NCBI RefSeq assembly: GCF_030378165.1
Contig: NZ_CP119766.1
Location: forward strand, 3,038,001 to 3,102,000
DNA from: Flavobacterium panacagri
Lineage (GTDB): Bacteria; Bacteroidota; Bacteroidia; Flavobacteriales; Flavobacteriaceae
Direction of reading: 5' to 3'
DNA length: 64,000 bases
The notes under the pieces: model-generated
The model's database searches: none
The model's input: only the letters and a program-made list of their open reading frames with translations
What the model was told of the DNA's origin: nothing
Made by a program: the position numbers and the translations under genes
In this document: positions 1 through 52,246 of the stretch, piece after piece
Numbering within the stretch: the stretch's first letter is position 1
Layout: every line of letters begins with the position of its first letter

Positions 1-1455
1 AAAAATAGAATCAGATAATTCGTTTACGATTTCAGAATCGCCATACGTTTTGCTGTAATCAAAGAAAATGAACGACAGTAAAACTTCATTTTTACCAGGA
101 TTGGTGATCCAGTGATGCACCTGAGCTTTCCAGTCGTCAAGGCTCATACACCATTTTGGACTCGACGCCATCATATCGGCCGGGCAGTAATCGTAGCCAA
201 TTTCAAAAAGACCTTTATTAACAAGTCCGGCAAATTTTAGGAAATAGATTCTGGTTTCATCCCTAAAAACTTCGTTTACATTTTCATATACAATAGCATT
301 ATCCTGATCGGTGTGAAGCATTTGTTCACCACGTCCCTGACTTCCAAGTGCCAGCCAGGCAAATTTTACAGGAGGCGGACTGCTCATTTTTTCGATACAA
401 ATTTCGATAACGCGAGTTGTACAGGCTTCATTCAGTTCAGTAATGATTTTAGTAATCAAAGTCATTGGAATATTTTGATCGAGATAACCCTGAAGCAACT
501 GCATGATTTGGTTGCGAATCGGCTTTATTTCCTTAATTTTTTTGGTACGTTTTAACGCTTTTATCAAAACGGCAGGATTGTTTCCAAGCGCCACCATAAC
601 GTCATGCTTCGATAAAATTCCGACTGCTTTGGTATTTACCGTTCCGTCTTTCGTTAAACATAAATGACTGATATTACTTTTCATCATCGCCATTTGTGCT
701 TCGGTAACCGTCATTTTTTTAGGATATGTAATTACCGGTTTTGTCATTATCGTTTCGGCAGTCGTCGTAATCGGAAAATCGCCGGTAACAATTTTATTTC
801 GAAGATCTTTATCGGTCAAAATACCAATCGGAAGCATTTCATCTACAATCAAAATCGCTCCAACTTTCTTTTTACTCATAATCTTAGCAATTTCCTTAAC
901 TGTTGTTGAAGGACTGCAGGTTACGATTTTTTTAGAATATTTTATCGGCGTTAAATCAAAGGAATGATTGTTAGAATGCAGATTTTCATTCAACAGATCA
1001 TCACCATATAATTTGTCTTTATGAATATCAGAATACGGATTTCGCGTATTAGAAGCATAACTTTCAATCAGGAAATTACCAACATTTCGGTTTTCCAATG
1101 CGTAAGGTTTAAAAACAGCAATCGGAATAGCGTATAAAATACTTTCTTCATGCGCTACCGCTTCCATAATATAGTTTTCCTGCGCTAAAAGCGGGCGAAG
1201 CCCAAAAATATCGCCTTCATCACACATATCCAGAACGGTATTTTTAGTGCTTTTTTTCAAAGCAACTGCACCTTTATGTACCACATAAAACGAATCGTGT
1301 GTTTTATCGTTTTCAGCAAAAATTACCGAATCTTTTTCTTTATATATAATTGAAATCTGTTCAGACAGCTTTTCTAAATCTTTCTGATGCAAAAAATTAA
1401 ACGGCGGATATCCTTTTAAAAAGTCAGCAACTCTCTGCGAAATGGTATTTTTCAT
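1..1455 (-). CDS. DUF294-type nucleotidyltransferase with cNMP-binding and CBS domains (partial)
   Basis: Read leftwards from an ATG at 1453-1455; the frame stays open to base 1, so about 485 residues are visible and the C-terminus lies outside the window. In order there is a cyclic-nucleotide-binding-like domain (about residues 10-130, with GDIFGLRPLL), a pair of CBS motifs (about 165-290, with KKKVGAILIVDE and SNISHLCLT) and the beginning of a DUF294 putative nucleotidyltransferase domain (LGSQGRGEQMLHTDQDN near residue 370). The GSxGRxE...DxD pattern is that of GlnD-type nucleotidyltransferases. The likely role is cytoplasmic signal-dependent nucleotidyl transfer; the substrate is unknown. 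The domain order is clear; the function is inferred from the family. Confidence 0.88.
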   Translation of the reverse strand, partial: MKNTISQRVADFLKGYPPFNFLHQKDLEKLSEQISIIYKEKDSVIFAENDKTHDSFYVVHKGAVALKKSTKNTVLDMCDEGDIFGLRPLLAQENYIMEAVAHEESILYAIPIAVFKPYALENRNVGNFLIESYASNTRNPYSDIHKDKLYGDDLLNENLHSNNHSFDLTPIKYSKKIVTCSPSTTVKEIAKIMSKKKVGAILIVDEMLPIGILTDKDLRNKIVTGDFPITTTAETIMTKPVITYPKKMTVTEAQMAMMKSNISHLCLTKDGTVNTKAVGILSKHDVMVALGNNPAVLIKALKRTKKIKEIKPIRNQIMQLLQGYLDQNIPMTLITKIITELNEACTTRVIEICIEKMSSPPPVKFAWLALGSQGRGEQMLHTDQDNAIVYENVNEVFRDETRIYFLKFAGLVNKGLFEIGYDYCPADMMASSPKWCMSLDDWKAQVHHWITNPGKNEVLLSFIFFDYSKTYGDSEIVNELSDSIF

Positions 1456-32873: not shown

Positions 32874-33179
32874 ACGTTTAAATTTTTGGCAAAGATAGCG
32901 TATTTGTAGAAAAGCAGAAAAGCAAAACGACTTGAATATGTTACAGATTTAACTTTTTGTTTCTTATTTGTAAACTCTCTAGAGTTTTAGTCCCGAAGCT
33001 TCGGGAGTAGATTTTGGAATTTGAAATTTTTGAATTGGATTTTATTTTTTTAACTACCGCTAAAAGTTTTTTTTGTGTCAAAATATGACAAAAGTCAGAT
33101 TTTCTATTTTTTCTTCTCTCTAATTTCGCATCATTGAAAAACATTCCATTCAATACATTAATCATATAAGCAGTAAAAT
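32874..33179. other. Intergenic region of 306 bp
   Basis: Divergent gap between dapD and the PAS gene. It holds a palindrome AAACTCT-CT-AGAGTTT (32973-32988), the palindrome TCCCGAAGCTTCGGGA (32991-33006) that recurs at 11971-12002, and TGTCAAAATATGACA (33076-33090) before a TAATTTCG box (33121-33128). I see no small gene or RNA gene in it. Confidence 0.55.
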
Positions 33180-33809
33180 ATGAATCAAGAAAATCACCTT
33201 CAGAACAGAGTCATAATTGACAAAGAGGTAACTTGGGATAAAACACAAGTTATTATGAGTAAAACAAATGCATTTGGTATTATCGAATACGCCAACGAAG
33301 TGTTTGTAGACGTTTGCGGTTATGAAGATTACGAATTAATGGGACAGCCCCATAACATTATTCGTCACCCAGATATGCCAAAAGTTATTTTTAAAGTGCT
33401 TTGGGAAAATCTAAAACAAGGGAAAAACTTTCATGCTATTGTAAAGAATTTAGCAAAGTCTGGAAGATATTACTGGGTTATTACGGATTTTGAAATTGCC
33501 CGAGACGAAAATGATGTGATTGTAAATTATTTTGCCAGAAGACAATCTGTGCCACAAGAGGTAATTGCAATGCATATTGAGCCCTTATACAAAAAACTAT
33601 TGCAAATTGAAGCGGCAAGCGGCGTTGAATTCAGCGAAAAATACTTAATCGGATTTTTAGAAGAAAAGAAGAGAAGTTACGTTGAATATATTAAGGAGCT
33701 GATTTTCGAAAACGAAAAAGCACAGTCTAAATTTGCGAATTACAATGCAGAAGAGGATGGAGAAGAGGAAGAGCATAGAGGTTTTTTCGGCCGTTTATTC
33801 GGAAGATAA
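33180..33809 (+). CDS. PAS-domain protein (Aer-type)
   Basis: A 209-residue protein. The PAS domain (about 30-130) follows the Aer type: MSKTNAFGIIEYANEVFVDVCGY, GQPHNIIRHPDMPKVIF and WENLKQGKNFHAIVKNLAKSG, where the RHPDMP motif and the Trp/Asn region match the FAD-binding redox sensors. After it comes a helical region, an acidic stretch (NAEEDGEEEEH) and a short amphipathic end (GFFGRLFGR) that may bind a membrane or a partner. No transducer or kinase domain is attached. Likely a redox or energy sensor acting through a partner. Confidence 0.85.
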   Translation: MNQENHLQNRVIIDKEVTWDKTQVIMSKTNAFGIIEYANEVFVDVCGYEDYELMGQPHNIIRHPDMPKVIFKVLWENLKQGKNFHAIVKNLAKSGRYYWVITDFEIARDENDVIVNYFARRQSVPQEVIAMHIEPLYKKLLQIEAASGVEFSEKYLIGFLEEKKRSYVEYIKELIFENEKAQSKFANYNAEEDGEEEEHRGFFGRLFGR

Positions 33810-40225: not shown

Positions 40226-40996
40226 ATGAATAGAGAAAACCAGTTAAAAGCGTTTGAAAGATTATTAAACATTATGGATGAACTTCGTGAACAATGTCCA
40301 TGGGATAAAAAACAAACGCTGCAGACCTTAAGACATTTAACAATCGAAGAGACCTACGAACTGGGAGATGCTATTCTGGACAATGATTTGAATGAAGTTA
40401 AAAAAGAATTAGGCGATCTACTTCTTCATATTGTTTTTTATGCTAAAATAGGAAGTGAAACTAATGATTTTGATATTGCCGATGTCTGTAACGAAATCTG
40501 CGAAAAGTTGATTCACCGTCATCCTCATATTTATGGAGATGTCAAAGTGGAAAATGAAGAAGAAGTCAAACAAAACTGGGAAAAACTAAAATTGAAAGAA
40601 GGTAAAAAATCAGTTTTAGAAGGAGTTCCGAGAAGCCTTCCCGCTTTGGTTAAAGCAAGCAGAATTCAGGATAAAGTAAAAGGAGTAGGTTTTGATTGGG
40701 AAGAACCGCATCAAGTTTGGGATAAAGTACAGGAAGAATTACAAGAATTGCAAGACGAAGTAAATTCTGGAAATCAAGATAAAATTGAAGACGAATTTGG
40801 AGACGTTTTGTTCTCGATGATTAATTACGCTCGATTTTTAAAGGTAAATCCAGAAGATGCATTGGAAAGAACCAATAAAAAATTCATTAAACGCTTTCAA
40901 TACTTAGAAAGTAAAGCAGGCGAATTAGGAAAATCTTTATCAGATATGACACTTAGTGAAATGGATGTTTTCTGGAACGAAGCTAAGAAACTTTAG
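40226..40996 (+). CDS. mazG: Nucleoside triphosphate pyrophosphohydrolase
   Basis: A 256-residue protein with two tandem MazG domains. The first (about 10-115) has CPWDKKQTLQTLRHLTIEETYELGDAI with the metal-binding ExxE...ExxD set; the second (about 140-250) has WDKVQEELQELQDEV and EFGDVLFSMINYARFL. MazG removes non-canonical or excess NTPs. The last 4 bp overlap the end of the convergent Crp/Fnr gene. Confidence 0.95.
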   Translation: MNRENQLKAFERLLNIMDELREQCPWDKKQTLQTLRHLTIEETYELGDAILDNDLNEVKKELGDLLLHIVFYAKIGSETNDFDIADVCNEICEKLIHRHPHIYGDVKVENEEEVKQNWEKLKLKEGKKSVLEGVPRSLPALVKASRIQDKVKGVGFDWEEPHQVWDKVQEELQELQDEVNSGNQDKIEDEFGDVLFSMINYARFLKVNPEDALERTNKKFIKRFQYLESKAGELGKSLSDMTLSEMDVFWNEAKKL

Positions 40997-41676
40997 TTTT
41001 CGGCTAGTTTTTTTAAAGCACGAACATTTTTAAGCATAATCTTTTTACCGACCAATTCAATCAATTCTGATTTGTTAAAATCAGATAATAAACGAATACA
41101 GCTTTCGGTTGCAGTACCAATAATTCCTGCAAGTTCCTCTCTCGTTAGTTGAACTTTCAGGGTTTTGTCTGTATCTTCTCCAAAAGCTTCGTGTAATTGA
41201 AGTAAAGTTTCAGCCAATCTTTGTTTCACTGTTTTCTGAACTAACGCAATTTTTTCATTTTCAGATTCTTTTAAATCTTCGCAGACAGACTGCATCATAT
41301 TTAAAGAAAACTGATTATTGCTGTTAAAGAAATTGATGATTTCGGCTTTCGGAATAAAACAAACTTCCATGTCTGCAATCGCTTTTGCCGTTAAGTTTGC
41401 CGGCTCATTGCTAATCATCGAACGCTGTCCAAGAAGTTCTCCAGATTTAACCAATTTTACGATTTGGTCTTTTCCGTTTGCACTCAATTTGGAGAGTTTA
41501 CCAACACCATCTTTCACACAAAATACTCCATTGGTAACTTCGCCTTCTTCAAAAATGGCTTCACCTTTTTTAATTTTGTAAGTGGTTTTACTGCTGGCTA
41601 ATTTTATAACTTCTTCTTTGTTAAGGGCTTTTAAAGAGCTAAGCTGGCGTACAATGCATTGATCACATTTATTCAT
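40993..41676 (-). CDS. Crp/Fnr-family transcriptional regulator
   Basis: About 227 residues from the ATG at 41676 (MNKCDQCIVRQLSSLKAL); an upstream TTG at 41697 is possible. An N-terminal CxxC (Cys4 and Cys7), then a cNMP-like beta-roll (GEAIFEEGEVTNGVFCVKDG; GELLGQRSMISNEP), a dimer helix and a C-terminal winged HTH (LTREELAGIIGTATESCIRLLSDF). In the recognition helix the Glu and Arg match the Fnr residues that read the TGA of the half-site. The cysteines make an oxygen-labile Fe-S cluster conceivable. It lies next to the cbb3 and hemN block, which carries matching palindromes. Confidence 0.92.
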   Translation of the reverse strand: MNKCDQCIVRQLSSLKALNKEEVIKLASSKTTYKIKKGEAIFEEGEVTNGVFCVKDGVGKLSKLSANGKDQIVKLVKSGELLGQRSMISNEPANLTAKAIADMEVCFIPKAEIINFFNSNNQFSLNMMQSVCEDLKESENEKIALVQKTVKQRLAETLLQLHEAFGEDTDKTLKVQLTREELAGIIGTATESCIRLLSDFNKSELIELVGKKIMLKNVRALKKLAEN

Positions 41677-41694: not shown

Positions 41695-41702
41695 CAAAAT
41701 TA
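41695..41702 (-). promoter_or_regulatory. -7 box of the Crp/Fnr gene
   Basis: On the minus strand TAATTTTG, about 20 nt before the ATG at 41676. No Fnr-type palindrome lies at the spacing seen for the respiration genes, so the regulator does not look self-activated by that site. Confidence 0.45.
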
Positions 41703-41815: not shown

Positions 41816-41829
41816 ATGACAATTATCAT
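41816..41829 (+). promoter_or_regulatory. Fnr-type operator before the copper ATPase gene
   Basis: ATGACAATTATCAT, half-sites ATGAC and ATCAT. Its centre (41822.5) is 36.5 bp from the last base of a -7-like box GAAATTTG (41852-41859). This places it near -42 relative to the expected start, the usual position for class II activation by Crp/Fnr proteins. Near-identical sites stand at 44320-44333 and 52233-52246, at the same distance from their -7 boxes. Confidence 0.72.
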
Positions 41830-41879
41830 CTTAATAATTGTGCTTTAATTGGAAATTTGTCGCAAATAAAAACAAGTTT

Positions 41880-44267
41880 ATGAGGGAGCAAAGTTGTTTT
41901 CATTGTGGTTTAACTATTGAACAAAATGAAGAAATTGATTTCGATGATAAAAAGTTTTGTTGTGCCGGCTGTAAAACAGTGTATGAAATTTTCAGCAGCA
42001 ACGATTTAACCTCTTATTATGATTTCGAAAAATCGCCTGGTGCCACACCACAGGACATTGCAGGAAAATACGATTTTTTAGATAACGAAGCCATACTTTC
42101 AAAAGTATTGGAGTTTCAGGAAGGAAATACTTCGATTGTTTCCTTAAATATTCCCCATATCCATTGCAGTTCTTGTATTTGGATTTTAGAAAACCTAAAC
42201 CGATTGCAGCCTGGAATTAGTATTTCTCAGGTTAATTTCCATGAAAAAAGAGTTCGAATTACGTTCAATTCAGATACAGTTTCTTTAAAAGAAATCGTGT
42301 ATATGTTGAGTTCAATTGGTTACGAGCCTTACATCAGTTTAGAAAATTACGAAACAGGAAAAACAAAAGTAGACAGAAGTTTAACCTATAAATTGGGCGT
42401 CGCTTTTTTCTGTTTTGGTAATATCATGCTGCTTTCGTTTCCGGAGTATTTCGAAATGAAAGAATTCTGGTTAGATAGCTACAAACCGTTCTTCCGATTA
42501 TTAATATTTCTTTTAGCACTGCCAAGTTTTTTATATTCAGCAAGCGGATATTATGTTTCGGCGTATCACAGTATCAGAACTCGAATGCTGAATATTGATA
42601 TTCCTATTGCGCTGGGAATTATCGTAATGTTCATTCGAAGTACTTATGATATGCTTATGGATCACGGGCCTGGGTTCTTCGATAGTTTAGCCAGTCTGGT
42701 GTTTTTTATGCTGCTTGGTAAAATGTTTCAGATTAAAACGTACAGTTTCTTAAGTTTCGAAAGAGATTTTAAATCCTATTTTCCAATTGCTGTAACCAAA
42801 ATAAATAAAGACGCTTCAGAAGATAATGTTGCCATTTACGATGTTGTTAAAGGTGATCGTTTATTGATTCGTAATCAGGAATTGATTCCGGTTGATGGAA
42901 TTTTAATCAGCGAAAGCGCCGATATTGATTATAGTTTCGTGACAGGAGAAGCTGTTCCGATTACCAAGAAATCTGGAGATAAAGTTTTTGCAGGCGGTAA
43001 GCAGATTGGAAAAGTAATCGAAATGGAAGTTTTGCATTCGGTTTCTCAAAGTTATTTAACCCAACTGTGGAGTAACGAAATTTTTCAGAAAAAAGTAGAT
43101 CAGAAACACAAGACCATTACAGATGCAATAAGCCGTTATTTTACCCCTATTTTATTGCTGATTGCATTTGCTGGTTTTGGTTATTGGATTTCTATAGATG
43201 CCAATATTGCTTTTAATGTTTTTACAGCGGTTTTAATTGTGGCTTGTCCATGTGCATTGGCACTAACGGCTCCGTTTACTTTTGGTAATATTTTGAGAAT
43301 TTTAGGAAAGAAGAAATTCTATTTGAAAAATGCTGTCGTAATTGAGCAGCTTGCAAAAGTGGATACAATCGTTTTTGATAAAACGGGAACGATTACAACC
43401 AACAAAAAATCAAATATATTGTATGAAGGAAATACTATTTCAGATGAAAATAGTGTTCTGATTAAGAATGTTTTACGTGCTTCAAATCACCCTTTAAGCA
43501 GAATGCTGTATGACTTTTTGCCCGAAACAAAAAGGATTAATGTTTTTGAATTTCAGGAGATTACTGGAAAAGGGATTTTGGCTGTTGCCGAAAATAAAGA
43601 AATTAAAATTGGTTCAGGGCAATTTGTGGATAATTTGGTTTCTGATGGTTCCGAAATTGAAAAAACGGCTTTGCATATTAAAATTGATGGAATTTATTTC
43701 GGAAGATTTGTTTTTCAAAACCAGTATAGAGAAGGATTGGAAATACTTTTTTCAAAACTGAATAAAGACTACGAAATCAAAGTACTTTCTGGAGATAATG
43801 ATGGAGAAAGAGCCAATCTTGAAGCTATTCTGCCCAAAAATACCGAACTAGTATTCAATCAAAAACCAGATCAGAAACTCGAATTTATAAAAAAACTTCA
43901 GGAAAACGGCAGGAATGTTATGATGGTAGGAGATGGTTTGAATGATGCTGGAGCATTGGCACAAAGTAATGTCGGAATTTCGATTTCAGAGAATGTAAAT
44001 GTCTTTTCACCCGCTTGCGATGCCATTTTAGACGCTTCAGAATTCTCACGTTTAAATTACTTTTTAAAGCTTTCTCATAAGGCGATTTTTATCATCAAGA
44101 TGAGTTTTGGCTTATCATTGCTCTACAACGTTGTGGGACTGACTTTTGCGGTTACTGGAAACCTGCTTCCGATAGTTGCAGCAATCATTATGCCGTTGAG
44201 TACAATTACCATTGTCAGCTTCGTTACTTTTATGTCTAACTATTTCATTAAGAGTAATTTAGAATAA
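41880..44267 (+). CDS. ccoI: CcoI/FixI-type copper P1B-ATPase
   Basis: A 795-residue P-type ATPase from the ATG at 41880 (the upstream TTG is rejected). N-terminal Cys-rich metal site (CFHCGLTIEQ; KFCCAGCKTVYEIF), an HMA domain with the binding site IHCSSCIW (about 95-102), membrane helices, the phosphorylation motif DKTGTITT, the CPC metal-transport motif VACPCALALT and the ATP-hinge GDGLND. It exports copper for assembly of the cbb3 oxidase. An Fnr-type palindrome stands upstream; ccoS and ccoNO follow. Confidence 0.93.
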   Translation: MREQSCFHCGLTIEQNEEIDFDDKKFCCAGCKTVYEIFSSNDLTSYYDFEKSPGATPQDIAGKYDFLDNEAILSKVLEFQEGNTSIVSLNIPHIHCSSCIWILENLNRLQPGISISQVNFHEKRVRITFNSDTVSLKEIVYMLSSIGYEPYISLENYETGKTKVDRSLTYKLGVAFFCFGNIMLLSFPEYFEMKEFWLDSYKPFFRLLIFLLALPSFLYSASGYYVSAYHSIRTRMLNIDIPIALGIIVMFIRSTYDMLMDHGPGFFDSLASLVFFMLLGKMFQIKTYSFLSFERDFKSYFPIAVTKINKDASEDNVAIYDVVKGDRLLIRNQELIPVDGILISESADIDYSFVTGEAVPITKKSGDKVFAGGKQIGKVIEMEVLHSVSQSYLTQLWSNEIFQKKVDQKHKTITDAISRYFTPILLLIAFAGFGYWISIDANIAFNVFTAVLIVACPCALALTAPFTFGNILRILGKKKFYLKNAVVIEQLAKVDTIVFDKTGTITTNKKSNILYEGNTISDENSVLIKNVLRASNHPLSRMLYDFLPETKRINVFEFQEITGKGILAVAENKEIKIGSGQFVDNLVSDGSEIEKTALHIKIDGIYFGRFVFQNQYREGLEILFSKLNKDYEIKVLSGDNDGERANLEAILPKNTELVFNQKPDQKLEFIKKLQENGRNVMMVGDGLNDAGALAQSNVGISISENVNVFSPACDAILDASEFSRLNYFLKLSHKAIFIIKMSFGLSLLYNVVGLTFAVTGNLLPIVAAIIMPLSTITIVSFVTFMSNYFIKSNLE

Positions 44268-44319
44268 TTTTAAATAATTCAAAAGATATTTTTTTTATTT
44301 TTATTATTCTTCTCTGAGC

Positions 44320-44333
44320 ATGATAATTATCAT
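44320..44333 (+). promoter_or_regulatory. Fnr-type operator before ccoS-ccoN
   Basis: ATGATAATTATCAT, a perfect 14-bp palindrome. Its centre (44326.5) is 36.5 bp from the last base of the -7 box TAATTTTG (44356-44363). No good -33 element is present, as expected for an activator-dependent promoter. See the operators at 41816-41829 and 52233-52246. Confidence 0.8.
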
Positions 44334-44381
44334 ATTTTAAACGCCGATTGCCTAGTAATTTTGTTAACATAAATTTACGGT

Positions 44382-44573
44382 ATGAGTGTTATTTATCTTT
44401 TAATTTCAGTAAGTATTTTCGTAGCAATTTGTTTCTTTATTGCTTTCATTATTGCTGTCAAATCTGGCCAGTACGACGACGATTATACACCTTCAGTCAG
44501 AATTCTTTTTGACGATGAGACCAAAATTATTTCCCAAAATAATAATTCACCAATCGAAGAAAAACAAGTATAA
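44382..44573 (+). CDS. ccoS: cbb3 oxidase assembly protein
   Basis: A 63-residue single-helix membrane protein (MSVIYLLISVSIFVAICFFI, then AFIIAVKSGQYDD). The motif GQYDDDYTPSVRILFDDE (about residues 29-46) with the acidic tail is the CcoS signature. It is required for heme/copper insertion into the cbb3 oxidase. It ends 2 bp before ccoN. Confidence 0.9.
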   Translation: MSVIYLLISVSIFVAICFFIAFIIAVKSGQYDDDYTPSVRILFDDETKIISQNNNSPIEEKQV

Positions 44574-44575
44574 TT

Positions 44576-46762
44576 ATGGAAATGGAACAGTTTTATTACG
44601 ACAACAAAATTGTAAAAAAATTCATTTACGCCACAATACTCTTTGGAGTTGTGGGTATGTTAGTGGGGCTTACCCTTGCGGTAATGTACCTTTTTCCCAA
44701 CATCACAGATGGGATCTCGTGGCTTAGCTACGGCCGTTTAAGACCATTACACACCAACGCTGTTATTTTTGCCTTTGTGGGTAATGCCTTCTTTGCCGGA
44801 ATGTATTATTCTATGCAGAGATTGCTAAAAGCCAGAATGTTTAGTGATTTTTTAAGTAATCTGCATTTCTGGGGCTGGCAGTTAATTATTGTTGCTGCAG
44901 CGATTACACTTCCTTTAGGTTATACTTCTTCTAAAGAATATGCAGAATTAGAATGGCCAATTGATATTGCAATCGCGTTAATCTGGGTGGTAATGGGTAT
45001 CAATATGATTGGTACCATGTTGCGCCGTAGAGAGCGTCACTTGTATGTAGCAATCTGGTTTTATCTAGCAACATTTGTAACAGTAGCGGTATTACACATT
45101 TTTAACAATATTGAAATTCCGGTTTCAGCTTTAAAAAGTTATTCTGTTTATGCTGGAGTTCAGGATGCATTAGTGCAGTGGTGGTATGGACACAATGCGG
45201 TAGCTTTCTTCTTGACTACTCCGTTTTTAGGATTAATGTACTATTTTGTGCCAAAGATTGCCAACAGACCTGTTTACTCTTATAGATTATCAATTATCCA
45301 CTTTTGGTCTTTAATCTTTATCTATATCTGGGCTGGACCTCACCATTTATTATATTCTGCATTGCCAAACTGGGCTCAGAATTTAGGAGTAGCTTTCTCA
45401 GTAATGCTAATTGCTCCATCTTGGGGAGGTATGATTAATGGACTTTTAACGCTAAGAGGTGCTTGGGATAAAGTTCGTGAAGAACCAGTTTTAAAATTCT
45501 TTGTAGTAGCAATTACAGGATACGGAATGGCAACGTTTGAAGGGCCGATGCTTTCTCTTAAAAATGTAAATGCTATTGCGCACTATACAGATTGGATCGT
45601 TGCCCACGTACACGTTGGAGCTTTAGCTTGGAATGGTTTTATGTCATTTGCGATTATATATTGGTTGATTCCACGAATGACAAAAACAGATTTGTTCTCT
45701 AAGAAATTGGCAAACTTCCATTTCTGGATTGGTACTTTAGGGATTATCGTTTATACAATTCCGTTATATGTAGCTGGTTTTCAACAAGCTTCTATGTGGA
45801 AACAATTTAATCCAGACGGAACTTTAACTTACGGAAACTTCCTTGAAACTGTAACGGCTATTATGCCAATGTATTGGATGAGAGCTATTGGTGGTACTTT
45901 GTACTTAGTTGGTATGCTGACATTGGTTTATAACATTATCATGACAGTTAAAAAAGGTTCCCCAGTAGAAGATGAATTAGCTCAGGCTCCTGCTTTACAA
46001 AGAATCAGTAGCGGAAGAGTAAGAGGAGAGAAATTCCACTCTTGGTTAGAAAGAAAACCAATTCAATTGACAATCTTGGCTACAATCGCGATTTTAATTG
46101 GAGGTATTATTCAGATTGTACCAACGATTATGGTGAAATCAAATATTCCGACTATTTCAAGTGTAAAACCTTATACGCCATTGGAATTAGAAGGACGTGA
46201 TTTATACATTAGAGAAGGTTGTGTGGGTTGTCACTCACAGTCAGTTCGTCCATTCAGAAGTGAAGTAGAACGTTACGGAGTACAGTCAAAAGCGGGAGAG
46301 TTTGTTTACGATCATCCATTCTTATGGGGATCAAAACGTACGGGACCGGATTTATTAAGAGTTGGTGGTAAATACAATGATAACTGGCACTTCAATCACA
46401 TGTGGAATCCGCAAAGTACATCTGCAGGATCAATTATGCCAGGGTACAAATGGTTATTTGACAACAAACCTCTAGATATTTCTTTAACACAAAAGAAAAT
46501 GCAAGCCATGATTTCTTTAGGTGTTCCTTACAGTGCAGAAGAAGTTGCAAATGCACAAAAAGCGTTGAGAGATCAAGCAGTTAAAATTGAAAAAAGCTTA
46601 GAAAGCGATCCTGACTTTGTAAAAAGTTATGAAGACAGCAAGAAAAAAGCGGCTGCAAAAGGAGAGCAATTCGTTCCAATGAACGAAAGAGAAATCGTTG
46701 CTTTGATTGCTTACATTCAAAGACTTGGTACTGATATTAAAGTAAAAGAAACTACTAAATAA
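44576..46762 (+). CDS. ccoNO: cbb3-type cytochrome c oxidase, fused subunits I and II
   Basis: A 728-residue fusion. The N-terminal part (about 1-480) is the 12-helix heme-copper oxidase subunit I: His ligands in LRPLHTNAVIFAF (heme b), WYGHNAVAFFL, AGPHHLLYSALP (CuB) and VAHVHVGALAWNGFMSF (hemes b and b3). The C-terminal part (about 500-728) is CcoO, with a single helix and a heme c site EGCVGCHSQSVRPF and distal Met in SIMPGYKWL. It reduces oxygen at micro-oxic levels. The N-O fusion is usual in Bacteroidota. Confidence 0.95.
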   Translation: MEMEQFYYDNKIVKKFIYATILFGVVGMLVGLTLAVMYLFPNITDGISWLSYGRLRPLHTNAVIFAFVGNAFFAGMYYSMQRLLKARMFSDFLSNLHFWGWQLIIVAAAITLPLGYTSSKEYAELEWPIDIAIALIWVVMGINMIGTMLRRRERHLYVAIWFYLATFVTVAVLHIFNNIEIPVSALKSYSVYAGVQDALVQWWYGHNAVAFFLTTPFLGLMYYFVPKIANRPVYSYRLSIIHFWSLIFIYIWAGPHHLLYSALPNWAQNLGVAFSVMLIAPSWGGMINGLLTLRGAWDKVREEPVLKFFVVAITGYGMATFEGPMLSLKNVNAIAHYTDWIVAHVHVGALAWNGFMSFAIIYWLIPRMTKTDLFSKKLANFHFWIGTLGIIVYTIPLYVAGFQQASMWKQFNPDGTLTYGNFLETVTAIMPMYWMRAIGGTLYLVGMLTLVYNIIMTVKKGSPVEDELAQAPALQRISSGRVRGEKFHSWLERKPIQLTILATIAILIGGIIQIVPTIMVKSNIPTISSVKPYTPLELEGRDLYIREGCVGCHSQSVRPFRSEVERYGVQSKAGEFVYDHPFLWGSKRTGPDLLRVGGKYNDNWHFNHMWNPQSTSAGSIMPGYKWLFDNKPLDISLTQKKMQAMISLGVPYSAEEVANAQKALRDQAVKIEKSLESDPDFVKSYEDSKKKAAAKGEQFVPMNEREIVALIAYIQRLGTDIKVKETTK

Positions 46763-46769
46763 CAGCATT

Positions 46770-46964
46770 ATGTTCGAACAAATAAAACACAATATGGAAA
46801 CAATATCGGGTGTAGAATTATACCCGATTATTTCCCTCTTGATTTTCTTCTTCTTCTTTGTAGGATTAGGCTTTTGGGTATTCTCTTATAGAAAAGATAA
46901 AATTCAGGAAATGAGTAGTATTCCTTTAGATGAAGGGCTTGTTGTAATTACAAAAGAGATATAA
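46770..46964 (+). CDS. ccoQ: CcoQ-like small subunit
   Basis: A 64-residue single-helix protein (LYPIISLLIFFFFFVGLGFWVF, then SYRKDKIQEMSSIPLDEG), placed between ccoNO and ccoP as CcoQ is. It stabilises the cbb3 complex in other bacteria. It ends 2 bp before ccoP. Confidence 0.82.
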   Translation: MFEQIKHNMETISGVELYPIISLLIFFFFFVGLGFWVFSYRKDKIQEMSSIPLDEGLVVITKEI

Positions 46965-46966
46965 AA

Positions 46967-47908
46967 ATGAAAAAGTTTTTCCCAGTATATGTTAGAGTAC
47001 CGTTGATTTTCTTCATCGTCTTTGGTTTGATGGAGTATTTCGTAGACTCAGGTGACAGAGCAGCATTTATAAAATACCCAATGGTGTCGCTGTTTTTATT
47101 TGTCTTCTTGTTCATTTTAATTGCAATTGAGATTACGCTTAGTGCTGTAAATCGTGTCATGTATCAATTAATGACACCAGAAGAAAAAGCGCAAAAAGAA
47201 TATGAAGAAAGCCTTAGTTTCAAAGAGAGCACTTGGTTTAAAGATTTAATGCAGAAATTAACTAAAACATCTCCAATTGAAAAAGAAGGCGAGTTGTTAA
47301 TGGATCATGATTATGACGGAATCAAAGAGCTTGACAATAATTTACCGCCTTGGTGGGTGTATTTGTTCTACATCTGTATCATTTTCGGAGTTATTTATGT
47401 AATTCGTTATGATGTTTTAGGAGCTGACAATCAAGAAATGGAGCTGAAAAAAGAAATGGCTCAGGCGAAAATTGATGTTGAAGAATACCTGAAAACTGCT
47501 CCAGATTTAATGGATGAAAAAACGGTTGTTTTGCTTACTGATGAAGCAAGTTTAGCAGTAGGAAAAGAAATCTTTACCACAAACTGTGCAGCTTGTCATA
47601 GAGCAGATGCAGGAGGGCAGATTGGACCAAACTTGACAGATGATAAATGGATTTTAGGAGGTGGAATTAAGAATTTATTCCACACCATTACAAACGGAGG
47701 CCGAGATGGTAAAGGGATGATTTCATGGAAAGGAACCTTAAAACCAAAAGAAATCCAGAAAGTTGCGAGTTACATTTTGTCTTTACAAGGCAGTAATCCA
47801 AAAGATCCGAAAGAACCGGAAGGAGAGGTTTGGGTAGATGAAAGTGCCCCAATCAACGATGCAACAGCCGTTGCACCCAAAATAGATACCACAGCAGTTA
47901 AAAAATAA
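46967..47908 (+). CDS. ccoP: cbb3 oxidase subunit III (one heme c)
   Basis: A 313-residue protein. Two membrane helices (RVPLIFFIVFGLMEYF and WWVYLFYICIIFGVIYVI), then a single cytochrome c domain with TNCAACHRADAGGQIGPNL (heme site about residues 206-210) and the distal Met in GKGMISWKG. Proteobacterial CcoP has two hemes; only one is seen here, which is usual in Bacteroidota. It carries electrons from quinol-side cytochromes to the oxidase. The C-terminus is low-complexity (PKDPKEPEGEVWVDE). Confidence 0.93.
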   Translation: MKKFFPVYVRVPLIFFIVFGLMEYFVDSGDRAAFIKYPMVSLFLFVFLFILIAIEITLSAVNRVMYQLMTPEEKAQKEYEESLSFKESTWFKDLMQKLTKTSPIEKEGELLMDHDYDGIKELDNNLPPWWVYLFYICIIFGVIYVIRYDVLGADNQEMELKKEMAQAKIDVEEYLKTAPDLMDEKTVVLLTDEASLAVGKEIFTTNCAACHRADAGGQIGPNLTDDKWILGGGIKNLFHTITNGGRDGKGMISWKGTLKPKEIQKVASYILSLQGSNPKDPKEPEGEVWVDESAPINDATAVAPKIDTTAVKK

Positions 47909-47923
47909 TTAGAATACAATATC

Positions 47924-49342
47924 ATGTCAAATTTACCAGACGAAGCGTTTAGAGATACCATTGGAACTATAGATGAAGGTGGTAAACGGAAATTTATTTT
48001 CCCTAAAAAACCGTCTGGTAAATTTTACGATTACCGCAAAATTGTCAGCTATGTTTTATTGGCAATTCTATTCATAAATCCGTTTATTAAAGTAAATGGA
48101 AACCAATTTATGATGTTCAACGTTTTAGAACGTCGTTTTAATATTTTTGGATTTCCTTTCTGGCCTCAGGATTTTTACCTCTTTGTAATTTCAATGCTTA
48201 TCGGCGTTGTATTTGTACTCTTGTTTACAGTTGTTTTTGGAAGGATTTTTTGTGGCTGGATTTGTCCGCAGACTATTTTCCTCGAATTGGTTTTCCGCCG
48301 AATAGAATATTGGATTGATGGAGATCGTGGTGCGCAATCCCGTTTGGCAAGGCAAGAATGGAACGCGGAGAAAATTAGAAAAAGACTTCTTAAATGGACT
48401 ATTTTCTTTGTGATTTCTTTTCTTATTGCCAATGTGTTTCTGGCTTATTTAGTTGGAAGCGACAAATTGTTTTTAATGATAGAACAAGGTCCAATTGAGC
48501 AGGCAAGTAATTTTATTGCACTTCTTATTTTTACAGGTGTTTTTTATTTTGTTTTTGTTTGGTTCCGTGAACAGGTTTGTATCATTGCTTGTCCCTACGG
48601 AAGGTTACAAGGAGTTCTTTTAGATAATAAATCAATTAATGTTGCTTATGATTTTGTACGTGGAGAAAAAGAAGAAGGACGTGCAAAATTCAAAAAAAAT
48701 GAAGATCGGGCATTAACAGGAAAAGGAGATTGTATTGATTGTCTGCAATGTGTTCATGTCTGTCCAATGGGAATTGACATTAGAAATGGAACACAGTTAG
48801 AATGTACCAATTGTACAGCCTGTATCGATGAGTGTGATCATATAATGGAATCGGTTGGATTGCCAAAAGGACTTATTCGATATGCTTCTGAAGATGAAAT
48901 TGCTAAAAAAGAACCTTTCAAATTTACTGCAAGAATGAAAGGATACACTGCAGTTCTCTTTATTTTATTGAGTATTTTTGTTGGAATGCTATTTTTAAGA
49001 ACTGATGTTCAGGCAGTTGTTTTACGTCTTCCCGGACAATTATTTCAGCATAACGGAGATAAAATAAGTAATGTTTACACCTATAAAATTGTAAACAAAA
49101 CGATGAAAGATTACAACGATATTCATTTTGAGCTAATTGATCAAAAAGGCGAAATTAAGAATGTTGGAAAAAGACATTTTAAAGTAGCTAAAGAAGGAAT
49201 TTCTCAAGGAACATTATTTATAGAAATAAAAGAAGTTTTATTAGAAAGTGATAAAACAAAAGTAAAAATAGGAGTTTACAATGGTTCTGAACTCATAGAA
49301 ACAACCACAACAAATTTCTTAGGACCACGCAGTTTTAATTAA
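47924..49342 (+). CDS. ccoG: CcoG/FixG ferredoxin-like protein
   Basis: A 472-residue membrane protein with five helices and two 4Fe-4S clusters in CIDCLQCVHVCPMGIDI (about 268-284) and CTNCTACIDECDH; the membrane motif FGRIFCGWICPQTIFLELVF is characteristic. The C-terminal domain is an Ig-like exported part. CcoG reduces copper for assembly of the cbb3 oxidase. Part of the cco operon. Confidence 0.93.
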   Translation: MSNLPDEAFRDTIGTIDEGGKRKFIFPKKPSGKFYDYRKIVSYVLLAILFINPFIKVNGNQFMMFNVLERRFNIFGFPFWPQDFYLFVISMLIGVVFVLLFTVVFGRIFCGWICPQTIFLELVFRRIEYWIDGDRGAQSRLARQEWNAEKIRKRLLKWTIFFVISFLIANVFLAYLVGSDKLFLMIEQGPIEQASNFIALLIFTGVFYFVFVWFREQVCIIACPYGRLQGVLLDNKSINVAYDFVRGEKEEGRAKFKKNEDRALTGKGDCIDCLQCVHVCPMGIDIRNGTQLECTNCTACIDECDHIMESVGLPKGLIRYASEDEIAKKEPFKFTARMKGYTAVLFILLSIFVGMLFLRTDVQAVVLRLPGQLFQHNGDKISNVYTYKIVNKTMKDYNDIHFELIDQKGEIKNVGKRHFKVAKEGISQGTLFIEIKEVLLESDKTKVKIGVYNGSELIETTTTNFLGPRSFN

Positions 49343-49355
49343 AAATTATAGTATT

Positions 49356-49805
49356 ATGAAAATTAATTGGGGTACCGCAATTGTCATCGCATTTGGATTG
49401 TTTATGACATTTATATTGTATTTTGTTTTTGAAGTACAGTCAAATTCTAAATACGATAATGATTTGGTCGTCGAAGAATACTACAAACACGACACACATT
49501 TTCAGGAAGAAATGGCTCGAATTCAGAATGCACACGATTTACAGCACAAACCATCTATCAAATATACAGATAACGGCGTAGCTGTAACTTTTCCTGCTGG
49601 ATTTGAAAGTGATAAAGTACAAGGCAATATTTTGTTATACAGACCTTCAAACAAAAAATTTGATTTCAATACTAAAATTGCTTTAACCAATTCTTCTATA
49701 CTCATTCCACAGAAAAAATTAATAAAAGGACGCTGGGATGTTAATATGGAATGGCAGTATGAAGGCAAAAAATATTTAACTAAAGAAGTGATTTACGTCA
49801 ATTAA
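49356..49805 (+). CDS. fixH: FixH-family protein
   Basis: A 149-residue protein with one N-terminal helix (WGTAIVIAFGLFMTFILYFV) and a periplasmic domain (KYDNDLVVEEYYKHDTHFQEE; RPSNKKFDFNTKIAL; KGRWDVNMEWQYEGKKY). FixH proteins assist assembly of cbb3 oxidase and often adjoin fixI/ccoI. Its position 13 bp after ccoG supports this. Confidence 0.9.
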   Translation: MKINWGTAIVIAFGLFMTFILYFVFEVQSNSKYDNDLVVEEYYKHDTHFQEEMARIQNAHDLQHKPSIKYTDNGVAVTFPAGFESDKVQGNILLYRPSNKKFDFNTKIALTNSSILIPQKKLIKGRWDVNMEWQYEGKKYLTKEVIYVN

Positions 49806-49816
49806 TTTAGGTTCTA

Positions 49817-49900
49817 AAGATTTGATCCGCTAGGATCAATTCATCGGTAGAAAAAAAATATCCATAGATAAATTGTCCTGTAGGGACACGTTATGAGGAT
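49817..49900. repeat. Intergenic repeat with two short hairpins
   Basis: Between fixH and the TauE gene: TTGATCC-GCTA-GGATCAA (about 49822-49839) and TGTCC-TGTA-GGGACA (about 49876-49891), joined by GGTAGAAAAAAAATAT. I remember similar TCCGTAGGAC-type intergenic strings in Flavobacterium; this was not checked. Its outer word TTGAT...ATCAA is not the Fnr palindrome seen nearby. Confidence 0.45.
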
Positions 49901-49922
49901 TTGCAATTAAAAATTAATTAAT

Positions 49923-50624
49923 ATGTTGTTTTCAGCATTCATATTAGGTCTTATCAGTAGTCTGCACTGTGTTGGCATGTGTGGGCCTATTGCCATGATG
50001 CTTCCTGTTGACAGACAAAATGAAGCCAAAAAAGTAACGCAGATTTTGACTTATCATTTTGGAAGATTAACTGCTTACGCTACAATCGGATTAATTTTCG
50101 GATTGTTAGGAAGAGGTTTTTTTCTTGCGGGATTACAGCAGAAAATGTCGATTATTATTGGTGTAATTATGATTATTGTAGTCTTGATTCCAGAGAAAAA
50201 ATTTGCGAATTATAATTTTTCAAAACCAGTTTATAAAATCATTTCTAAAATTAAATCAAACCTTGGAGCTCAATTTAAAAATAAGAGTTATAAATCTCTT
50301 TTTACAATTGGTCTCTTAAACGGATTTCTGCCTTGCGGGATGGTTTATGTTGCGCTGTTTGGAGCAATTGCAATGCAAAGCGCTGGTTTTGGGATTCTTT
50401 ATATGCTCTTATTTGGAATCGGAACGATCCCATTAATGACCATTGTAGTGTATGTAAATTCATTACTAAAATTGCCTTTCAGAAATAAAATCCAAAAGGC
50501 AATTCCATATGTGGCTGTAATTATTGGAGTTTTGTTTATTCTTAGAGGATTAGGACTTGGAATTCCATATATTTCTCCTTCTAATATGAGTTTATTTGTA
50601 CAGCAGACTCCTAACTGCCATTAA
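49923..50624 (+). CDS. TauE/SafE-type membrane protein (cytochrome-oxidase associated)
   Basis: A 233-residue protein with six to seven helices. The first helix holds ISSLHCVGMCGPIAMMLP, with the His-Cys-Gly-Met-Cys metal-like motif of the UreH/TauE-type proteins linked to copper handling beside cbb3 genes; NGFLPCGMVYVALFG is the second Cys motif. It may pass copper or protect it during oxidase assembly. It is in the same direction as fixH, past a repeat, and is likely to be part of the operon. Confidence 0.87.
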   Translation: MLFSAFILGLISSLHCVGMCGPIAMMLPVDRQNEAKKVTQILTYHFGRLTAYATIGLIFGLLGRGFFLAGLQQKMSIIIGVIMIIVVLIPEKKFANYNFSKPVYKIISKIKSNLGAQFKNKSYKSLFTIGLLNGFLPCGMVYVALFGAIAMQSAGFGILYMLLFGIGTIPLMTIVVYVNSLLKLPFRNKIQKAIPYVAVIIGVLFILRGLGLGIPYISPSNMSLFVQQTPNCH

Positions 50625-50642
50625 ACATTGAGTATAATTTTT

Positions 50643-50777
50643 AACACATAGAAACATAGATTTCATTATCGCTAAAAAGGTATTTCCCTTATTGAAATAA
50701 AACAATAGCTATGTGTGAGAAATATATTTCTCTGTATTATTCTTTATTCACACTAAAAAACTATGTTTCTATGTGTT
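50643..50777. repeat. Long inverted repeat (AACACATAGAAACATAG)
   Basis: Perfect 17-bp arms at 50643-50659 and 50761-50777, 101 nt apart, in the gap between the TauE and hemN genes, which converge. It could end both transcripts if it folds. The word ACATAG is repeated within each arm. I see no gene between the arms. Confidence 0.65.
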
Positions 50778-50816
50778 TAATATTTTTTGGACACAAATGA
50801 TTAAATCTTAATTTAT

Positions 50817-52181
50817 TTATACAGTCATCGAAAACAAGTTGGTTTCCGGTGACTTTCTTTTTAGATGTAAATCGAAAGCCATACAAATATTACGTACAAA
50901 AGGCCTTCCTTCTTCTGTGATTTTAATTGAATTTTCTTCAATAACAATTAAACCATCATTTTCTATTTCTTGTAAAGCAATTAAAACTTCAGGAAGTTCT
51001 GAGAAATTTAAAGATTCTTTTGTCCAGGAAGTCTGCAGTTCGCAAGTTAAATTCAGAATGTGTTTTCTAATAATTAAATCTTCTTCATTTAAAATATGTC
51101 CTTTTACAACTGGTAGTTTATCCCATTCTAATAATTGGTAATAATCTTCTAGATTTTTAGTGTTTTGGGCAAAACTATACCAGCTGTCACTAATCGAAGA
51201 AACGCCTAAACCAATCATTACTTGTGTTTTTGAAGCACTATATCCCATAAAATTTCGATGTAAATTACCATTATGAGCGGCTTTATATAAACTATCAGCT
51301 TCTAAAGCAAAATGATCCATTCCTATTTCATGATAACCGTTTTGCGAAAGCAATTTTTTTCCTGTTTCATAAAGCTGTCTTTTTTCGGCATCTTTTGGCA
51401 GGTTTTCGTCGTTAAAGCCACGTTGTCCGTTTCCTTTTATCCACGGCACATGAGCGTAACTGTAAAAAGCCAATCGATCTGGTTTTAAAGAATTTGTTTT
51501 TTCAACCGTATCTATAACATCTTCGATAGTTTGAAATGGAAGCCCAAAAATTATGTCATGACCTATAGAAGTATAACCAATTTCCTTGGCCCAAAAAGTG
51601 ACTTTAGCAACATTATGAAACGGCTGAATTCGGTTAATGGCTTGCTGTACTTTTGCAGCATAATCCTGAACTCCAAAACTCACTCGGCGAAAGCCTAAAT
51701 CATATAATTTTTTTAATTGTTCGTGAGTAGTATTATTGGGATGTCCTTCAAAACTAAATTCATGGTTTTCAGCTTTTACAGCATAACTGAATATTCCATT
51801 AATCAGCAATTCTAGGTTTTCTTTAGAAAAGAATGTAGGTGTTCCGCCTCCTAAATGAATTTCTTTAATAACAGGTTTTTCGGGAAGTATTTTACAGTAC
51901 AAATACCACTCTTTTAAAAGTGCTTTAATGTAAGTTTCTTCAACAGAATGATTTTTGGTAATTCGTTTGTTACATCCGCAGAAAGTACACATGCTTTCAC
52001 AGAAAGGCAGATGAATATATAAACTAATTCCGTTTTTTGAATTGCTTTCAGAAAATGATTTTTGTAAAGAAGTGATCCATTTTTCAGTTGTGAAATCAGC
52101 TTCGTTCCAATACGGAACTGTCGGATAACTTGTATATCTTGGACCAGGGACATTGTATTTTTGTGTCAAAGAGATTTTCAT
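50817..52181 (-). CDS. hemN: Oxygen-independent coproporphyrinogen III oxidase
   Basis: A 454-residue radical SAM enzyme. YIHLPFCESMCTFCGCNK (about 50-67) with the CxxxCxxC cluster plus a further Cys, HLGGGTPTFFS (about 110), and the HemN C-terminal tail region. It oxidatively decarboxylates coproporphyrinogen III without oxygen, for heme in micro-oxic or anoxic growth. It matches the cbb3 oxidase by logic. Its upstream Fnr-type palindrome supports common control with the oxidase. Confidence 0.95.
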   Translation of the reverse strand: MKISLTQKYNVPGPRYTSYPTVPYWNEADFTTEKWITSLQKSFSESNSKNGISLYIHLPFCESMCTFCGCNKRITKNHSVEETYIKALLKEWYLYCKILPEKPVIKEIHLGGGTPTFFSKENLELLINGIFSYAVKAENHEFSFEGHPNNTTHEQLKKLYDLGFRRVSFGVQDYAAKVQQAINRIQPFHNVAKVTFWAKEIGYTSIGHDIIFGLPFQTIEDVIDTVEKTNSLKPDRLAFYSYAHVPWIKGNGQRGFNDENLPKDAEKRQLYETGKKLLSQNGYHEIGMDHFALEADSLYKAAHNGNLHRNFMGYSASKTQVMIGLGVSSISDSWYSFAQNTKNLEDYYQLLEWDKLPVVKGHILNEEDLIIRKHILNLTCELQTSWTKESLNFSELPEVLIALQEIENDGLIVIEENSIKITEEGRPFVRNICMAFDLHLKRKSPETNLFSMTV

Positions 52182-52232
52182 AATGACGGATTTAGTTTAC
52201 CTCAAAATTAAAACTTCGATGACCGACATAAA

Positions 52233-52246
52233 ATGACAAATATCAT
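52233..52246 (-). promoter_or_regulatory. Fnr-type operator before hemN
   Basis: On the plus strand ATGACAAATATCAT, half-sites ATGAC and ATCAT; on the strand of hemN it reads ATGATATTTGTCAT. Its centre (52239.5) is 36.5 bp from the last base of the -7 box TAATTTTG (minus strand, 52203-52210). This is the same spacing as at 41816-41829 and 44320-44333. Confidence 0.78.

Follow-up and report, generated by a model that had tools for sequence, protein, structure and literature searches.

The 64,000-nucleotide stretch of Flavobacterium panacagri DNA analysed here (contig NZ_CP119766.1, positions 3,038,001 to 3,102,000; hereafter the window) contains the gene cluster for a cbb3 oxidase, preceded by the divergent gene of an FNR-like regulator that we call FNR1 and followed by hemN. 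Three palindromes resembling FNR operators stand before the genes ccoI, ccoS and hemN, and our subject is the fixed distance that separates them from the promoter box typical of Bacteroidota. The names that an earlier note, made from the sequence alone, had given to the genes behind them (copper ATPase, ccoS-ccoNO and hemN) hold when the open reading frames are compared with Pfam and NCBIfam families. The genes of the block follow each other in this order:

40993-41676, minus strand: FNR1, FNR-like regulator of 227 amino acids (Pfam cNMP_binding and HTH_Crp_2; Cys4, Cys7, Cys53 and Cys106; recognition helix TATESCIR)
41880-44267, plus strand: ccoI-like heavy-metal (copper) P-type ATPase (Pfam/NCBIfam)
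44382-44573, plus strand: ccoS (FixS; TIGR00847, above cut-off)
44576-46762, plus strand: ccoNO, subunits I and II fused (COX1 and FixO; NF011053, above cut-off)
46770-46964, plus strand: open reading frame of 64 amino acids occupying the ccoQ place (by position only)
46967-47908, plus strand: ccoP (FixP_N and cytochrome c)
47924-49342, plus strand: ccoG (Pfam/NCBIfam)
49356-49805, plus strand: ccoH (FixH; Pfam)
49923-50624, plus strand: DsbD_2 membrane protein of the cluster (Pfam)
50817-52181, minus strand: hemN, oxygen-independent coproporphyrinogen III oxidase (TIGR00538, above cut-off)

The palindromes, whose coordinates in the earlier note agree with the sequence, and their boxes are the following:

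41816-41829, plus strand: operator 1, ATGACAATTATCAT, in the intergenic region common to fnr and ccoI
41852-41859, plus strand: -7 box GAAATTTG of ccoI, without the first T
44320-44333, plus strand: operator 2, ATGATAATTATCAT, before ccoS
44356-44363, plus strand: -7 box TAATTTTG of ccoS-ccoNO
52233-52246, minus strand: operator 3, ATGATATTTGTCAT (minus-strand reading), before hemN
52203-52210, minus strand: -7 box TAATTTTG of hemN

At all three promoters, exactly 36.5 bp separate the centre of the palindrome from the final G of its -7 box, as had been claimed. Class II activators of the Crp/Fnr family bind to sites centred at -41.5. Since a study on F. psychrophilum places the sigmaA box TAnnTTTG of that species at -12 to -5 (PMC9723704), a distance of 36.5 bp centres the three sites at -41.5. 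The sequence thus strongly supports a class II arrangement at promoters of the Bacteroidota type. The same study reports that under oxygen limitation the cbb3 oxidase is strongly upregulated and heme biosynthesis is upregulated too; the words "fnr" and "crp" are absent from its main text (PMC9723704).

The presence of these three palindromes within one block is far beyond chance, for the exact 14-nucleotide pattern ATGAYAAWTATCAT occurs at only four places in the genome of 5.98 Mb, three of which are inside this 10.4 kb. Loose forms of the motif (up to three mismatches) show no excess within the window, with 71 matches against 64.6 ± 8.3 in shuffled sequences; hence, the signal resides in the strict motif taken together with its place and spacing, and loose counts have not been used. 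A scan of the whole genome, which the earlier note had proposed, found that palindromes spaced from a box are not randomly distributed: the exact pattern TGAYNNNNRTCA-N{8..38}-TAnnTTTG has 27 matches, nine of them at a gap of 23 and 18 spread over the other 30 spacings (binomial p of 1e-7 for 9/27 over 31 spacings). None of the nine lies inside a stop-to-stop frame as long as 150 amino acids. Two of them are the ccoS and hemN sites listed above; the ccoI site, whose box is without the first T, does not match the exact pattern. With up to one mismatch, TGAYNNNNRTCA-N23-TAnnTTTG has 41 matches in the same genome versus 15 for the reversed pattern; as reversal tests a promoter box only weakly, the controls on spacing were added.

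The same arrangement is found in related organisms, for which we used 80 loci around CcoNO relatives kept from at least 591 found. The order of the cluster is often conserved among them. Once loci whose tblastn match began past query residue 40 are left out of the site counts and of the promoter alignment, an upstream exact TGAYNNNNRTCA is present in 51 of 62 usable loci for ccoI, 63 of 76 for ccoS and 21 of 33 for hemN, the control with reversed sequences giving sites in 1, 3 and 0 loci, respectively. Site-box pairs, counted with boxes of at least 5/6 and gaps of 15-31, have the gap of 23 in 114 of 130 cases (ccoI 38/48, ccoS 55/61, hemN 21/21). The exact pattern with N23 has 529 matches in a set of 149 genomes of Bacteroidia, compared with 12 for the reversed pattern and 31 for the same pattern with N20; 502 of the N23 matches fall in the 119 genomes that have an FNR-like hit at 1e-20 (receiver fusions included) and 27 in the other 30, a comparison that ignores kinship. 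Within the genus, matches are present in 30 of the 31 genomes searched. Motif, spacing and conservation have therefore been shown by computation, and the specificity of gap 23 in the own genome, in the loci of relatives and in the class bears out the placement near -42, in a Bacteroidota promoter context, that was originally suggested. The strict rule TGAY-N4-RTCA-N23-TAnnTTTG predicts candidate low-oxygen promoters class-wide.

Alignment of the relatives' promoters (exact sites only, box of at least 4/6 at gap 23) reveals which bases are kept. The outer T of the promoter-proximal half-site is nearly invariant (ccoI 42/42, ccoS 55/56, hemN 21/21), 114 of the 119 aligned promoters have A or C as the outer base of the distal half-site, and the central bases of the operator differ between sites. 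The first T of the box is present in all promoters of ccoS (56/56) and hemN (21/21) and absent in 38 of the 42 of ccoI; therefore, the ccoI box GAAATTTG is a conserved departure, perhaps holding the promoter of the copper ATPase weaker than that of the oxidase. The proposal that one regulator turns on the whole cbb3/heme block needs to be qualified, because sites are found at the three promoters of ccoI, ccoS and hemN but are almost absent upstream of the other genes of the block in the relatives (ccoP 0/57, ccoG 2/75, ccoH 0/69, DsbD_2 gene 2/70). These later genes are consequently presumed to be expressed via the ccoS operon.

The protein encoded next to these sites, FNR1, has a Crp-type beta-roll and HTH_Crp according to Pfam, and in many loci of Flavobacteriaceae its gene stands next to ccoI in divergent orientation; of the 80 cco loci, 36 contain a form of at least 44% identity. 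The alignment confirms that it possesses the Glu and Arg of the recognition helix (Glu209 and Arg213 of E. coli FNR), which are found in 47 of 47 rows, and the N-terminal CxxC that had been noticed before. Its earlier description as an Fnr-type regulator is correct in so far as the protein is FNR-like, but it is not a canonical FNR, lacking both the third N-terminal cysteine and Ser212. Indeed, 40 of the 47 aligned rows have S, N or T at the third N-terminal position of CX2CX5C and none has Cys, so that only CxxC is kept, and the place of Ser212 is taken by Ile in 43 of 47, the FNR1 of the window included. Four cysteines, C4, C7, C53 and C106, are invariant in the orthologues from cco loci (36/36), in the aligned set (40/40), class-wide (29/29) and among the nearest proteins (120/120), and C53 is absent in all seven regulators that have no CxxC. 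Cys106 aligns with Cys122 of E. coli FNR. In the structure model of FNR1, C53 lies in strand 50-56 and C106 in strand 103-109; these strands are neighbours in the Crp fold.

In structural terms, this observation raises a question: How could FNR1 hold an iron-sulfur (Fe-S) cluster with one of the classical cysteines missing? A [4Fe-4S] cluster might be held by Cys4, Cys7, Cys53 and Cys106, with Cys53 replacing the third N-terminal cysteine of E. coli FNR, a proposal for and against which we see equal weight. The genome also encodes a second FNR-like paralogue, FNR2 (L140:1165-1866, minus strand, corresponding to G000:C1 near 5457073), which has CX2CX4C, Cys110 and Phe at the place of Cys53; its homologues have CX2CX4C in 119 of 121 cases, with gaps in the other two, and Phe in all 121. 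From these reverse cysteine patterns we infer that a cluster ligand has been relocated in FNR1. If true, the Cys53 hypothesis would explain why searches for the classical FNR cysteine motif miss these proteins. An FNR1 with all four cysteines also occurs outside Bacteroidota, namely L227, in the genome of L104 that is recorded as Calditrichota.

Beyond the three promoters named in the earlier note, which remain, the predicted regulon is wider. Exact sites at gap 23 in the own genome precede, besides ccoS and hemN, the genes for a YceI protein, an outer-membrane barrel (below the Pfam cut-off), a Crp-like protein, a universal stress protein and RibB. Of the 41 hits with up to one mismatch, 30 were examined for their gene context. 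Sites with one mismatch precede ccoI and the genes for a second YceI protein, ferrochelatase (L117), a CBS-domain protein, a thioredoxin-like protein, a pyridine nucleotide reductase, a small multidrug resistance protein, a protein without Pfam family (L115) and a PAS protein; another such hit, L131, has the start of an aminotransferase gene at a distance of 149 bp. Each of these memberships is a prediction. Seven of the 30 hits (L120, L121, L125, L126, L128, L129 and L130) are rejected as regulon members, being located inside stop-to-stop frames of 150 amino acids or more or at their ends, and four are not counted for want of a plausible start nearby (L119, L122, L134 and L135). The hit of L117 overlaps a frame of this kind too, but there the frame is the upstream extension of its own gene frame. 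The PAS protein is encoded in the window, where the features are:

33086-33097, plus strand: fourth candidate operator, TGACAAAAGTCA, with box TAATTTCG at 33121-33128, one box mismatch and again a spacing of 36.5 bp
33180-33809, plus strand: PAS-domain protein of 209 amino acids, behind the fourth candidate operator

Elsewhere in the genome, at G000:C1:2966972-2967045 and 1224495-1224568, a single palindrome has a box at gap 23 on either side; three of the four boxes have one mismatch, and these may be bidirectional promoters.

The reading that we consider very probable is that FNR1 drives a low-oxygen regulon comprising the cco genes, hemN and the wider set. The divergently encoded FNR1 would be an oxygen-labile activator: at low oxygen its cluster would remain intact and the protein would dimerise, the dimer would bind ATGAY-N4-RTCAT centred at -41.5, and bound FNR1 would recruit the sigmaA RNA polymerase to the Bacteroidota promoter. 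Transcription of ccoI, of the ccoS-ccoNO(Q)PGH operon and of hemN would thereby be switched on, as would that of the predicted wider set of about ten genes. Binding of the sites by FNR1, activation, the Fe-S cluster and the oxygen signal are all things we infer from the features described above.

Several observations weigh against this reading. FNR1 scores 82.7 bits with the NCBIfam Fnr model, far below the cut-off of 228 bits, and to this are added the two departures from canonical FNR described above and the existence of FNR2 in the same genome. Distribution also fails to match fully: among the genomes tabulated below, five that have FNR1 show no site before ccoS (L037, L066, L079, L094 and L104), and 13 without FNR1 retain a positioned site. 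Several of the nine exact hits stand before genes having no clear link with oxygen (YceI, RibB and the outer-membrane protein), and two more, L106 and L108, have an exact site and box with no clear gene behind them. As regards a simple swap of cluster ligands, 23 of the 29 class-wide FNR1 orthologues have a further N-terminal cysteine, mostly 9 or 11 residues past the second one (L166-L190), although this residue is rare elsewhere (1/40 in the cco-locus set and 0/120 among the nearest FNR1 proteins), while FNR2 has a fifth near-invariant cysteine, Cys39, in 119 of 121 homologues.

Could the palindromes be Fur-like or other A+T-rich inverted repeats that only by coincidence share a spacing? Operator 2, ATGATAATTATCAT, does look like what we take to be half of a Fur box. 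However, the central bases vary among the sites, the spacing peaks at one value in each of the three samples and the reversed-sequence control yields very few sites, all of which makes such an explanation highly improbable. A different issue is which protein reads the sites, for they might be real class II operators read by FNR2, alone or together with FNR1. FNR2 holds the classical set of FNR cysteines and its recognition helix, TTEEQAIR, retains Glu and Arg; yet its gene is distant from the cco cluster, the 8 kb around it contain one site, no more than chance would give, and it is FNR1 that has the place of divergent neighbour of ccoI. We therefore consider a role of FNR2 as the reader unlikely, though much less so than the Fur explanation.

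The retention of sites in genomes without FNR1 leads to another possibility, namely that the operators were conserved while in some lineages, not including that of the window, the Fe-S regulator was replaced by a fusion of a receiver with a Crp/Fnr domain, acting with a FixL-like PAS kinase. A first search covered 38 of 40 loci chosen from the 80, mostly those without adjacent FNR1, its weaker hits being classified in part (G213, for example, has a second one); a further search covered these 38, the own genome and ten loci with FNR1. In all, 48 genomes were tabulated, again leaving out loci whose tblastn match began past query residue 40. A site counts as positioned where a box of at least 4/6 follows it at gap 23 upstream of ccoI, ccoS or hemN. 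Of the 48 genomes, 30 have such a site: ten have FNR1 only, seven FNR1 and the fusion, 11 the fusion only and two, of 2.1 and 1.7 Mb, neither. The other 18, three of which were not examinable, have the fusion only (12), FNR1 only (3) or both (3). All three fusions scanned contain Response_reg, cNMP_binding and HTH_Crp_2, the fusion has a recognition helix similar to that described above (ATESLIR in L237), and a related histidine kinase adjoins the fusion in 29 of 30 loci (for instance, the fusion beside a PAS histidine kinase at L280:4668-6958, FixL-like, and at L281:4736-6936). In Aquimarina, the fusion-kinase pair lies inside the ccoG-ccoH-hemN cluster, and the PAS domain of the kinase finds its best match in FixL structures (1d06, E 1.2e-15), followed by DosP, with a His aligned to the conserved His that serves FixL as heme ligand. 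In Maribacter, the pair lies beside genes that by eye resemble universal stress genes.

On the other side, the fusion occurs in 12 genomes that have neither FNR1 nor a positioned site (two of them not examinable for sites) and together with FNR1 in ten, the match of the kinase is restricted to the kinase core in several of the 29 loci, the FixL-like motif is present in 12 of 30 fusion loci and heme binding by the partner kinase is a prediction. The own genome has no receiver-Crp fusion at 1e-30. The association seen in the table has a Fisher p of 4e-4, but it takes no account of kinship and is biased, because the 48 genomes were partly chosen for non-adjacent FNR1, so that its proportions are not population frequencies. 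On balance, a swap of sensors in those lineages is to us an evenly poised proposition; if true, it would neatly exemplify how one regulator can replace another while the operators stay as they were. A broader view, to which we give slightly less credit, is that an old operator fixed at -41.5 has outlived the sensors of cbb3 control in Bacteroidota: an FNR with the relocated ligand Cys53 in its beta-roll in many lineages, a heme kinase resembling FixL, partnered by a receiver-Crp fusion that merges FixJ and FixK, in others. Returning to FNR1 and the window, the evidence supports a class II regulon of FNR type with TAnnTTTG promoters, in which a cluster ligand may have been relocated; relatives show signs that the sensor has been replaced.

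The FNR1 gene has its own promoter element near the shared operator:

41695-41702, minus strand: -7 box TAATTTTG of the FNR1 gene, with the centre of the ccoI operator 127.5 bp away

Together with two close relatives, the window shows distances of 125.5-127.5 bp here. Among the fnr-ccoI regions of 37 relatives, the operator lies 22.5-24.5 bp from the fnr box in 17, a geometry suiting repression, and at 36.5 bp, the class II geometry toward fnr itself, in four (L043, L038, L046 and L054); six have no exact box or site and the remaining ones differ. Given such scatter, a single rule of fnr autoregulation is rejected.

Oxygen sensing for the control of respiration seems poorly described in Bacteroidota. 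In the open literature listings, mostly unopened and with subscription papers outside them, no paper was recognised as defining an FNR operator of this kind in the phylum. A metagenome study reports FNR in other taxa, the CRP/FNR homologues of Flavobacteriales and Saprospiraceae being predicted to sense carbon (PMC8510549). HcpR of Bacteroides and Porphyromonas gingivalis belongs, like FNR1, to the Crp/Fnr family; the motif published for HcpR2 is GTAACnnnnGTTAC, located upstream of hcp genes, and P. gingivalis has a motif of a different type (PMC1274295). CrpPg of P. gingivalis (2gau), unlike FNR1, has no cysteine at the positions of C53 and C106. Compared with the FNR of E. coli and Aliivibrio fischeri, FNR1 lacks the third N-terminal cysteine, has Cys53 (Ala in A. 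fischeri FNR) and has Ile for Ser212, while its putative sites have A or C, not T, as outer base of the distal half-site and stand before a TAnnTTTG promoter. In Alphaproteobacteria, FixK, FnrN and FnrL control cbb3 oxidase and hemN, and FixK is not known to carry an Fe-S cluster. Their boxes are of FNR type as are those described here, the published consensus for FnrN/FixK being TTGANCNNGATCAANG (PMC4999443), whereas FNR1 itself falls under the NCBIfam cut-offs for FixK and FnrL, with 63.9 and 61.3 versus 300 bits. A further likeness, found in the relatives and not in the own genome, is with the FixL-FixJ system: the PAS domain of the relatives' kinase matches FixL structures, but the receiver is fused directly to the Crp/Fnr domain, so that the roles of FixJ and FixK would be merged in one protein.

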